A DNA stretch of 64,000 bases from Cheilinus undulatus (Eukaryota; Chordata; Actinopteri; Labriformes; Labridae), in contig NC_054867.1 of the NCBI RefSeq assembly GCF_018320785.1, positions 37,860,855 to 37,924,854 of the forward strand. The letters are read 5' to 3'. The notes beneath the pieces are model-generated. The model was not told the origin of the DNA. It was given only the letters and a program-made list of their open reading frames with translations, and searched no databases. Made by a program: the position numbers and the translations under genes. Positions 18,091 to 24,100 of this stretch are shown here, in pieces (position 1 is the first letter of the stretch; the number at the start of each line of letters is the position of its first letter).

Positions 18091-18127
18091 TCAGTTGGCT
18101 GCCAGTCCTGTGGCCTCAGAGGAAAGC
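18091..18127 (-). CDS. pcbp2: pcbp2 distal terminal exon, 12 codons including stop
   Basis: On the minus strand, a CU-rich tract ending CTCTCTGCAG precedes G CTT TCC TCT GAG GCC. The preceding exon ends in AG, so the joint gives R, followed by [11 protein letters not shown] and TGA (18093-18091). The phase fits exactly, and the peptide matches the known PCBP2/PCBP3 end (R-L-S/T-S-E). The exon is too short to stand out as an ORF and lies 4.4 kb beyond the alternative last exon. Confidence 0.85.
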
Positions 18128-21100
18128 CTGCAGAGAGACAGAGAGACACCCGGAGACCAGGGAGAGAGAGTAAGGCATGCAATCAGACAGACAGGATAAA
18201 TGTCATTTACTGTACATCGCATCATTAGAATAAAATTACAGATAAAGAGACCATCTGGGTTCACTGATCAGGAAATGTTGGCTCCATTATTTAGAGGTGA
18301 CATATCAAACTCCTTTTCAACCTTTTAACACAGTCCTCTGTGGCCTAAATGAAACGTCTGCACCGGGCTTTATTCAAAATATGACATAGATCAAGCTCCA
18401 GGGGAGGTTTTTGACCCCGTTTCAACCAACTCTAAACAACCTTTTTTGGTGTGCGTTTCTTTAAATGTAAATAAGCTCCTCACATTGCATGATGTGCCAA
18501 CATGAGTACAGAGTGTGCTTCCACAAACAAAGGACTGTGTTTCACATTTTGTAATCATTAAATACTCCACATACCCAAATATATGTGCAAAAATACAGGA
18601 AGAGTGGGTTTTTTATGATATGTCCCCTTTAAAAGATAAACAGCTGTTCAGAGTCAGATATCACTGATACTCAACAGTTCAGATGAAGAGATGGTATGAG
18701 GAAACAGTTCAACATTTTGGTAAACACTTCAGTAAATACTTGCAGAGATTCAGAGGAGACTGCTAATAGCTTAGCACAAAGACAGGATACAACTTTATAA
18801 CTATTATGTGCAGAGAGGAACAATAATCTTTTTGAAAGTTCAGTTCAGTTTAGGTCACTAACAGAAAGTGCTGCAAGACAATTTCCAGGCCAAGAAACAC
18901 CTTGACACACTACTGACCTTTGTAAAACCAAATAATATTGCGTTGATGGTTAGTGAGGGAACCTCAGGGATAACTTCAGCTTTTCATTTGTTAAATCGAC
19001 ATTTGTGACTTTTGCTGAACACCTAACCAGCTTCAGGGCAGCTTATGATCCAGATAAGATATCAAACCATATGAAACTGTTGAGTACTAACCAGCCAGAT
19101 CGTCTAGTAGAGAGAGACCGGGGCATTGTTAAGCACTTCATCTTTGCAGGATGATTTTAAATAAAACAACTGATCATTAAAGGTTTTATGCTTTACAGCA
19201 GGGGTGGGCAACCAGCGGCCTGGGGACCGACCTTATGCTGGTCTCTACCTTACTCAATGTGGCCTCCAAGTTGATTTCATTATAAACTTGAAGAAAACCT
19301 GACAAAATCTGCCATAAAACATGAAAAAAGCAACATTTCTCTTATAATAGATCACTGATAGGCATTTAGTTCTTTGAAATACATTAGTAGATGTAATAGG
19401 CTGTAACTTTTTATGTAAAACTTTTTTGTATGCATCACTAAATAAACTTCTAAAAAAAAATTATGCAAGTAAAATTAATCAATTATTAAATTCTCCCTTT
19501 CATTAAACTGTTCATAATAACAGAAGCTAAACTGAGAATATATTTAAATGTTGAACAATTTGGCCCTTTGGCATTGACAGCTTTTTAAAAGCATTTGACG
19601 TTTATAGCTCCATTTAATAACTGATGTTATCTCAAGACACAACTAGTTTTAAATAAAAGTAAAAGATAACGTAATTAATTAATAAAATATTAATCTCATC
19701 AGCATCGTTATAGAGTAGACACCCATCAGACATGGATGGATTTCATTACAGGACCGAGCACTATATGTCTGTTCTGCTGTGATGGTATATATGCTTACTG
19801 ATAGATTAGCTGTTGGTTATACATTTGCATACATTGGTGTTTGTGGTTTGAGTTGGGGTGCAAATTATTGGAATTTTAATAATAAATTTGCTGATAATCA
19901 CAAATCTGTTTTGGCCAATTGTCATATTGATATGTAAATGTAGTTCAGACCTAAAACTTCTGTCCTTAAAACACACTTTAAATACTAGGGATGAACAAGG
20001 AAACAAACATCCGTCTTTTAAACAAACTTAAAGGTCAAAAATGAAGAAAGAAAATGACTTGGAGAGGACAAGTGTCTGTTGGTTCAGCCTGAAATGCCAC
20101 AAATTTACTCTTAAATAAGGTTGATATTTAAAGCCCATATAGACTGATATTTAGAACCAATATATAGATATATGCCAATATCAATGTTATGCTGATAATA
20201 ATGTGCATCTCAGTTTAAAATTTAAGGTATGCGTGTTTGTGTTTATTTCATTAAATGGGCGTGTTAGTATATGTTTATGTTAAATATACTTATATGTTTT
20301 TGCATTGTCACACGGGTAGCTGCTGCTATGCAAAAGCCACTGGGGGTCTGAATAAACAAACATATTGCCTTTTTTTTACCTTTTATTTGCCAACACAAGC
20401 TCTGTATGACTATCAGAGCTGCAGCTGAACTAATACACCTTAAAATATCAGACAAACTACATATGATAAAATAGTTAAAGTAAAAAAACTGTCATTTTTT
20501 CTTTTAGAATCTGTTTGATTAATTATGATAAGGTGATATTTGAAACTCGATTCTTTTGCCAGTCCTTTCTTGTAGCTTGAATTATGTTTAAGTTTGTATT
20601 TTTTAATGTTGGTCTACTATGCTCTGAATCTGTGAAATACAACTTGCTGACAGCAGACTTGTTTAGGATTAAGATAAAGTTCACAATGCCCTTTTAATCA
20701 GCAAGCTAAAAGTAACCTGGATAACATCTAAACATCCCCTGTTTGTATCAGTGTGATTAATGTGAAGCAACATAATGGAGTTTACTCTGTCGGCCTGACT
20801 CTGGCTTTAACACGAGCTGCAGTGACTCATATTACAAAAAGCTAAAACAACTGTTTAAAGGTGTTTTAACTCATTACTCCATTTAAAAGTCAGTGATGAT
20901 TTAAAGAAGCATGCTGTGGTGTTTGAGACTGTAGAGGCCGCTATTCAGAGTGACAAGGCTGAAACTGACCTAAATCAATGATAAATGTGGAGCTTCCCAC
21001 AAATCCTTCACAATTAAAGTCCATAGTTGTTGTTTTCCTCAAGTGCTTTTATTGGGAACTCCATCAAACCAGAAAACACTGTGCTTTCAGTGGCAGCTTT

Positions 21101-24100
21101 CTTTTATGTTAATTCTTAGTTTGAAAACTTCACATCTCTTGCTTCCTGATGCAATAGTCCTCAGATATATCCTGTTCAATTGAATCATTGGCGTTTTGAA
21201 CATGTTTTTTGTAGATTCTACATATTTTCTTTTTATTTAGTGTGGCATTGTTTTTTTAAATATTAAGTTTGCTACTGCAAGCTCTGTACTGCTGTTGGCT
21301 GTTTCCAGTTGTTTCTGGGGTTTTTACAGTGCAAAAAAATTTGTAATATTTGATTTGAAAACATTACATTTACATGCTGCTACATGTTTCTACATGAAGA
21401 CAGCACAAAGTTTAAATGAATTTATTAGATATGATAAAATTGTATACATTTTACAGTAAGTTTTGCCTTTTAATAAGAAACAGTTTCAAGTTTACTAGAG
21501 CTTTGTGGAACCGTATTCATAATACAACCACAAACAATAAGAATATTAATAATAATTTTTAAAATATCTGCTTCTATATTGGGTATCAGGACTAATGTAT
21601 CTGAAACAGATTGGGACTGGAGGAAAGTGGATTAGCCCATCTCTAGTTATGAATTGCTATACAAATTAAAATTGACTAATTGTTAAGATTGGTTTCTCAT
21701 GTTGATAAGCAGCTTTGTATGATCATGTAGCTCAGAGCTGGAAGATACTCTGGGTGATCCGAACTCACTTTGCATCAGTCTAAGATAAAGGATTGTCAAA
21801 ACAGTGAGCGTCAAAGGTGTCTTTAGTTGTTTGATTTTTGCCGACAAGTGTAACCCATCTTTGTGCAAAGCTAGATAATCCACCTGCAAACTTTATTCAC
21901 AACCACAGATTGATATGAATCTTTTCTTTAAACTCACAAAAAAGTATCTGTAAAAGCATTTCCCAAAATGTTTGAACATTCCTTCACCTGGCTATAAATA
22001 AACTGGATGTATTTGTATTCCCTCCATCAACAAAACTCTTGAAAAGTGATGATTCAGTGGCCTTTCATACCTGAGGACAGAACAACTTGAAGTGTACTTT
22101 GATTGCTTCTTATATAAGCAAAATGCAAGTAAACAAAATTACAATTGTACATATACTTTATATCATGACTGCTAACACTCAAAATTCACTACAAGAGAAC
22201 TATTTCCATAAATACAGTGTGACATCTTAAAGAGAGCCGCTACCTGAGCAGAGCTTACACAAAGAGAGAAATGCTTCAGTGTCCATGCTAGATTCAAAGT
22301 CATTAAAAATATAATGCACTCAACCAACAGGTTATTTCTTAAAGAGACAGGCCAAATCAAGCTACAGAGATCTACTTTATAAATATGGCGGCAACCATGT
22401 TTCTGGCTGTGTAACTCTTGCTTGTGTGCATTCGTTTAGTGTAGTAAATTAAGCGTGGCATGGCTCAGCCAGATACAAAAGCGAGTGCAGGTACAGACAA
22501 CATCAACATTGTCAGCACTTTAGTAGTAGATGACTTGTGTTTCCTTGGTTAGTAAGGGGAGAGCCTCCGCCTTTTAGACTTGGAGCTCAACTCGGGGGCG
22601 ATTTTGGGCTCAGTGGGCATTGGGTGGGTGGGGTTACTGCCCCCGCTGACAACATGGAGGGCCAGGAGAGGGAGGGGCTTGAGACTGAGGAGACTCGACA
22701 CACAGGCAGGAGAGCTGGGGAGCAGGGAGTCAGTGGTGGAGGAAGAGGAGGAAGAGGAGGAGGAAGAGGTGGGAGGAGGCGGCCCTGGAGCCAACAAGGA
22801 TAGAGGAATGGAGGCTGAGGGGGGCACCACACAGGAGGAGGAAGAAGAGGAGGAGGAGGAAGAGGAGAAGGAGGAGGTAGCAGCAGAGGAGGTGGTGGTG
22901 GTAGTAGTAGTGGTAGTAGTAGTAGTAGTGGTGGTGGTGTAGGGAGGGCACAGGCTGGTCTGTTCAGGGTTCAAGGAGGAGGAGGAGGGAGGAGGTTTAG
23001 AGGACTCTACACTGTAGAAAGAGAGACAAGGAGAGAGGGACAACACAGTCGGGATGGGTCACAGGGCAGGCTGGTGAGCAATGGGTGAGGGAGGGGGAGG
23101 GAGGGGGAGGAGGAGGAATCACTCAGGGATATGATCAAAACACGAGACAAAAAGCTTCATTAGAAAAGAATGTGTCGATAAAACAAGAGGAAAAATAATC
23201 GCTAGTGAAGGATCAATAAAGGAAGACATGCATGTAGACTGACAGAGAGCTAGCAACAACACGATGATGATCAGCATTAGCCACAAAAATACTAAACACC
23301 ACATCAGTTCAACACAAATCAAAGCAGCAAGGTGTCCGCTTATGCACTGGCATTAGATACCTTGACTTTTCTGTCCTTGAATAAATTAATCTTGATAATT
23401 AAAGGAGAAACCTGAGCAGCTAGACCTTAATTATGCATGTTTTTCTTTCCCCTTCTTTTAAATTCAAAACCACTTAACTAAAAAAATGACAAAATATTAA
23501 ATAGCTGATACTAAGATAGGAGATAGCATAGTCTACAAGGGATCATCTCACCTGGCGTTGATGAGGTACTCTGCCAGACTGATGCTAGCAGGCGACCCCG
23601 TGATGGTGACCTGGCGATCAGTCGATCCATCCACTGGATTTGCAATCTTGATCTGGGCGCCTGACATTTGCCTGATCTCGTTGATCTTGGCTCCCTGGCG
23701 GCCGATGATGCAACCGATGAGCTGTAGTGTGAGAAAAGGAGGAAAGTTGGTGATAAAAATACACAAAAGTGGTTCCATCATTGTCTTTTGTCCATTTATT
23801 TTAAATCACAATTTCAGATTCTTCTCGTAATGTGGGTAAGAAAACGTGCTTTAATTTAATCAGTGCTAAAAAATGATTTGCTATAAACACTTACATCATT
23901 TGGAATGGTCATTTCATGGGAACTAGTCTGAGCAGAAGCATCTATTCCTGAAAAATAGAAAACACACAATTGACAATGGTTTAAGTGCTTTTTGTAAGTA
24001 ATATAGAATATTTTCTAAGCAACCAAAATATATATAAGTATTATGGGGAAAACTGTGAAAATTCTAAGTGATACAATCTGCTAACAGCCTACAATTAGAC

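Follow-up and report, generated by a model that had tools for sequence, protein, structure and literature searches.

PCBP2 is a protein that acts in splicing and in iron delivery. For human PCBP4, long and short C-terminal splice forms have been reported (PMC4508830), and long and short endings are thus already known as a kind of switch in this family; the long form is reported to have proline-rich domains, a potential export signal and a potential import signal, all of which the short splice form, alphaCP-4a, lacks. Two import signals, one between KH2 and KH3 and one in KH3, are described for PCBP1 and PCBP2 in PMC9701828, which also reports that location differs by family member—PCBP1/2 nuclear, PCBP3/4 cytoplasmic. 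PCBP1/2 are further reported (PMC4797308) to enhance exons that C-rich tracts precede. Here we describe a gene with three KH domains on the minus strand of a 64,000-nucleotide stretch of the Cheilinus undulatus genome (contig NC_054867.1; C3:37860855-37924854), hereafter the window, whose coding exons we rebuilt from the sequence. We consider it likely that this fish pcbp2 has two genuine alternative last exons, a long, easily overlooked one of pcbp4 type and a short one of pcbp2 type, and a single gene would then probably make proteins with either family ending.

The gene comprises 11 common coding exons, running from an ATG at 35755 to the KH3 exon, followed by two terminal exons (positions are those of the window):

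35755-35687, 34440-34417, 34316-34284, 34143-34027 and 33927-33796, minus strand: first five of the ten upstream coding exons (35755..23895)
33677-33549, 31549-31475, 30769-30728, 27071-26999 and 23947-23895, minus strand: the next five upstream coding exons
23721-23552, minus strand: KH3 exon, the last common exon, with donor CCAG/gtgaga
23011..22549, minus strand: coding part of the proximal terminal exon, a split Ser, 153 codons and a stop at 22551-22549
18127..18091, minus strand: coding part of the distal terminal exon, a split Arg, 11 residues and a stop at 18093-18091

GT begins the donors of all 11 common exons, and AG ends the acceptors of the last ten. Pfam places three KH_1 stretches in the gene, whose closest solved relatives are PCBP2 chains (2jzx, 2axy and 2p2r as top PDB matches), and the PCBP2 KH3 chain 2p2r continues into RLSSE, the start of the short end; a pcbp2-like identity is supported. 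Between two of the coding exons lies an exon-like piece of about 46 nt (30881-30926, minus strand; cag/AAATGTGG...AAATG/gtac), inclusion of which would shift the frame.

Ahead of the terminal exon the coding sequence measures 917 nt, which leaves over two bases, AG, of a split codon, and the proximal (...tttctacag/TGTAG at 23011) and distal (...tctctgcag/GCTTT at 18127) acceptors both continue it in phase. The proximal join gives 459 aa and the distal join 317 aa, the two acceptors being 4.9 kb apart and the distal one lying 4.4 kb past the proximal stop. The proximal tail consists to 62% of Ser, Thr and Pro over 154 residues, with long Ser and Thr runs, and the short end has the same 12 residues in the pcbp2 duplicate at C11:35.09M (hereafter C11b). 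The preliminary description of this DNA had proposed two acceptors in phase after the KH3 exon, isoforms of about 317 and 459 aa, a proximal exon adding 153 aa of Ser/Thr/Pro-rich tail, a distal exon 4.4 kb further on and the usual PCBP2/PCBP3 C-terminus at the short end, all of which our exon joining and the C11b comparison bear out. At the level of sequence, the two-terminal-exon arrangement is confirmed as a real structural feature, well above chance.

Each ending also has a candidate 3' end:

21892..21897, minus strand: AATAAA, a candidate poly(A) signal 654 nt beyond the first base of the proximal stop and the first AATAAA/ATTAAA there
16873..17197, minus strand: end of the distal 3' untranslated region (3'UTR), 69% identical over 358 alignment columns with the same place in C11b

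An AATAAA lies near the distal 3'UTR end in the window (16895-16890) and in C11b alike. If the KH3 exon is spliced to the proximal exon and the transcript is polyadenylated, probably near 21.9 kb, the product would be the 459-aa protein with its pcbp4-type tail; skipping of the proximal exon, joining of the distal one and an end near 16.9 kb would yield ordinary 317-aa PCBP2.

Relatives were sought in the whole genome (1.17 Gb). The KH3 exon found 10 matches at E<=0.001, itself included, with identities of 96% for C11b, 82% for genes at C24, C15 and C6, 73% for one at C11:31.2M (C11a) and 42-50% for four more; the comparison made here covers six genes (window, C11b, C11a, C15, C6 and C24). It points to a more definite identity for the long tail, namely a pcbp4-type terminal exon and not an extension peculiar to the window gene. 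When the tail end was compared by tblastn with the 20 kb downstream of KH3 in the five paralogs, one clear match emerged, in C6 (E 1.2e-5); it reaches the stop codon, and the C6 exon starts 0.33 kb after the KH3 exon of its gene. The C6 tail exon has its own relative in the terminal exon of C11a (E 2.9e-20), and the split-codon phase, with the first codon cut after two bases, is common to the terminal exons of window, C6 and C11a. We tentatively label C6 and C11a pcbp4-like after the tail of human PCBP4; the PDB matches include no PCBP4 chain. The aligned part of the window tail is this:

22701..22552, minus strand: final 50 codons of the tail, in ungapped alignment with the C6 pcbp4-like tail through the stop

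Of these 50 residues 19 are identical, 10 of them although their codons differ. By position within the codon, 25, 32 and 16 of 50 bases match at positions 1, 2 and 3 (about 13 expected each from composition), a pattern that points to selection on the protein after the window and C6 genes parted. The last 54 residues score 81 against the C6 tail, a value that none of 20,000 shuffles reached (best shuffle 58). With the C6 tail end as query against 6164 open frames from the six loci, phmmer placed the window exon next after the two pcbp4-like exons (E 0.0017), aligned to the C-terminus. The window and pcbp4-like tails have in common a C-terminal stretch of about 50 aa ending in ...[KR]x[LF][SA]PY or close to it, and its homology to a paralog terminal exon is the strongest evidence for the long exon. 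Because the tail end aligns with the C6 terminal exon, a pcbp4-type last exon would sit beside a pcbp2-type one—the point that the preliminary description missed, having correctly recognised a pcbp2-like gene, two in-phase terminal exons and an ordinary short end. Motif patterns for the tail end, run over the five paralog regions (20 kb), were rejected as too strict: for that reason they found neither pcbp4-like tail, and tblastn then found both.

Several results weigh against this identification. The tail is mostly low-complexity, as is its Ser/Thr/Pro spacer; its end scores 42 against the C11a tail, which is weak alone (166 of 20,000 shuffles did as well); phmmer with the full C6 tail gives the window exon an E of 2.4 only; two-sequence HMMs of both pcbp4-like tails did not find it; and when the full C6 tail was run against the genome, no matches were listed at E<=10 beyond the two pcbp4-like exons. 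In favour of the identification, a search of the genome with the window tail has the C6 exon as the best non-self of four matches listed at E<=10, a weak one (E 0.67). The Ser/Thr/Pro-rich make-up and the HMM searches that missed the window exon would suit a convergent likeness between low-complexity tails, with the proximal exon a lineage-specific novelty. We think this very improbable, since the likeness lies in the non-repetitive end and runs through to the stop codon, since the C6 exon has the same phase and the same place after KH3, and since composition-preserving shuffles of the tail end never reach the score.

The splice sites were judged with an acceptor matrix built from the ten other acceptors of the window gene. 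Among the 438 AGs between 23521 and 16000, acceptors 23011 and 18127 rank 1 and 2; against all 4012 gene-strand AGs of the window, the ten training sites counted in, they come 12th and 29th. Their scores of 12.1 and 9.6 compare with 12.1 and 9.2 for the two best leave-one-out training scores. On the known terminal acceptors of the paralogs the matrix gave ranks of 1/1676 (C11b), 522/1651 (C15), 379/1654 (C11a) and 663/1637 (C6); it is poor on three of the four and of little use outside the window gene. The long open frame was dropped as proof of an exon, as 437 of 5000 mononucleotide shuffles of the proximal exon remain equally open; the exon is C/T-rich, and for both reasons frame length is weak evidence. 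The same count fits a relic, an ancient pcbp4-type last exon now unused in pcbp2 and open by chance and C/T-rich make-up, as does C11b, which has no such tail exon in the 30 kb searched and counts to that extent against two working exons in the window gene. The two last exons are read here from genomic sequence, and we infer that both mRNAs are made. A relic is nonetheless unlikely in our view: the acceptor of the long exon is the best-scoring of the 438 in its region, and the codon-position agreement with C6 speaks for selection on the protein. Within the tail exon, two of the four gene-strand pyrimidine runs of at least 25 nt fall at 22738-22877 (minus strand), where Ser runs are encoded; these stretches are possibly length-variable repeats.

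The paralogs suggest how two genuine last exons may have come to stand in one gene. Both were found in the window gene alone, one of the six examined. C6 and C11a have the long tail, and no RLSSE-type exon was found in the 30 kb searched at each, with a pattern that assumes an Arg start. The short exon is present in C11b, 1.86 kb after KH3, and in C15 (RLTSEVTGMGTL), where 30 kb contained no pcbp4-type tail. At the pcbp3-like C24 gene (KH3-like exon near 17287663), 60 kb held no recognisable short last exon and no tail either, and a genome-wide pattern for the PCBP3-type end matched C15 only. Prokaryote genome contigs, also scanned for any stray DNA from fish, gave 594 pattern matches, none confirmed as a relative. 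The most economical account of this distribution would be an ancestral PCBP gene with both last exons, of which the paralogs lost one or the other: pcbp4 would mainly have retained the long exon, the short exon would survive in pcbp3 and in one copy of pcbp2, and the window copy would retain both. That exon shuffling brought the long exon into the window gene alone is a less likely alternative.

A C-rich tract lies before the proximal acceptor, and comparable ones were found in three paralogs:

23118-23081, minus strand: pyrimidine tract rich in C, 70-107 nt before the proximal acceptor, a candidate PCBP binding site
4941-4988 of the C15 locus L023: C-rich tract
near 468 of the C6 locus L025: C-rich tract
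near 7612 of the C11a locus: C-rich tract

By a count of C in 35-nt windows with at most 3 purines, the first of these is the densest such tract in the window on either strand. Within 120 nt upstream of the proximal acceptor, 34 bases fall in C runs of at least 3, against 0-6 for the other eleven acceptors; the two pcbp4-like tail exons have 18 and 15. Applied unchanged to the five paralog loci (180 kb) and to both strands, the 35-nt measure finds three tracts of at least 22 C across all six loci: one precedes the long exon of the window, another lies within that exon, and the third precedes the short exon of C15. The densest gene-strand tract of the locus (30-64 kb) lies at most 150 nt before the terminal acceptor in C15, C6, C11a and the window (24, 21, 18 and 26 C per 35), that is, in three of the four paralog genes with a known terminal exon, C24 having none. 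Acceptors can be expected to follow pyrimidine tracts in any case, and few further acceptors are known in the paralog loci. The two short exons of pcbp2 type, in C11b and at the distal site of the window, are preceded by no 35-nt stretch with 3 purines or fewer.

Because PCBPs enhance exons with C-rich tracts upstream, auto- or cross-regulation of PCBP ends is plausible, with PCBP proteins on the tract favouring the long exon, and the tracts before the C15, C6 and C11a terminal acceptors hint that PCBPs may control the last exons of their own genes family-wide. The tract evidence is open to objection on several counts: the 35-nt measure was chosen after seeing the window, which makes the window result post hoc; under an earlier measure (C runs in 60-nt windows) the leading gene-strand sites fell within the tail exon and around 3.7 kb, none of them before the proximal acceptor; by that same measure the opposite strand is higher (14 vs 10); and a tract also precedes the pcbp3-like short exon of C15, so that such tracts are not peculiar to long tails. 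Both exons might instead be used under the control of tissue and other pyrimidine-tract binders, such as PTBP, and not of PCBP. CUCUCU-type tracts do lie ahead of both acceptors; such tracts are common, however, and it is the densest C-rich ones that precede terminal acceptors in the window and three paralogs. We regard control of this PTBP kind as a sizeable possibility, though not one we would call probable.

Two elements of the tail bear on where the long form might reside:

22683..22657, minus strand: LKPLPLLAL, residues 416-424 of the long form, a hydrophobic export-like pattern of putative function
22575..22564, minus strand: KRRR, a basic cluster near the C-terminus and a possible import signal

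The long tail would be laid out as a Ser/Thr/Pro spacer, the conserved hydrophobic LKPLPLLAL and a basic end in ...RRLSPY. The export-like pattern, four of L/I/V/M/F spaced x2, x2 and x1, occupies corresponding alignment positions in the three tails; neither pcbp4-like tail has K[KR]x[KR] at its end. Both window isoforms should keep the PCBP2 import signals. Given these and the signals of the PCBP4 long form, we propose that the tail may shift nuclear-cytoplasmic location through the export-like motif, the long form shuttling more to the cytoplasm. This proposal is tempered by the lack of specificity of the pattern, which appears in about 13% of shuffles of single tail ends and three more times in the common part of the window protein; its weight would be that of the shared position alone, which homology would also give. 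Taken together, a single ancestral vertebrate PCBP gene may have had both PCBP2/3-type and PCBP4-type last exons, which the paralogs divided and between which the window pcbp2 still switches; PCBP proteins would set the switch through the C-rich tract (with like tracts in pcbp3 and pcbp4 as cross-regulation), a mainly nuclear protein would gain an export signal, and the family would sense its own nuclear level. As a whole this combination is tentative, and we are rather doubtful that it holds in full.

The surroundings of the gene bear on its origin. On the plus strand, map3k12-like frames at 9355-13313 lie tail-to-tail with pcbp2, and a paralog of the first lies near C11b. The map3k12-like exon is about 14 kb from the window pcbp2 and about 13 kb from C11b, and since both genes adjoin such an exon at 13-14 kb, they look like duplicates of one block, presumably pcbp2 copies from the teleost genome duplication. 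The human neighbour order is map3k12, pcbp2, prr13, amhr2; besides the map3k12-like exons, kinase exons lie upstream of the window gene, and the names of these neighbours are tentative. Other features of the window are:

49437-54392, minus strand: kinase-domain exons (Pfam), which with cysteine-containing upstream frames recall a type II TGF-beta-family receptor, perhaps amhr2
38887-39723, minus strand: two adjoining open frames that resemble a Tc1/mariner transposase
60360-60719, plus strand: zf-4CXXC_R1 zinc-finger exon (Pfam E 2e-17), which we take to be cdca7-like

Should pcbp2 be able to take on a PCBP4-type tail, exon choice would account for part of the division among family members, single-ended fish gene models would be incomplete, and one could test how PCBP2 and PCBP4 came to differ. 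The C-rich tracts ahead of last exons in several PCBP genes make self-control of PCBP ends directly open to test. In the open literature covered, which is partial, we found no report of a PCBP4-type tail in PCBP2; public gene models may well list such isoforms in other fishes. Compared with ordinary PCBP2 of the 317-aa type, the window gene has all eleven common exons and the same RLSSE... end, and differs in its added in-phase proximal last exon. The exons of CDK2, TARS2 and RUNX1 that PCBP1/2 are reported to enhance (PMC4797308, PMC9701828) have a C-rich tract upstream, as does the optional exon here; unlike them, the candidate is a last exon in a PCBP gene itself, and its tract lies 70-107 nt upstream with another pyrimidine tract nearer the acceptor. 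PCBP4 (alphaCP-4/alphaCP-4a) resembles the window gene in setting a long proline-rich C-terminus with potential export and import signals against a shorter end, as reported in PMC4508830. In contrast to PCBP4, the window gene is pcbp2-like and its short end is of PCBP2/PCBP3 type; its tail carries extended runs of Ser and of Thr, and a KRRR end that the pcbp4-like tail ends lack. A switch of this type is already described for PCBP4; what is new is its presence in pcbp2 with a pcbp4-type exon.

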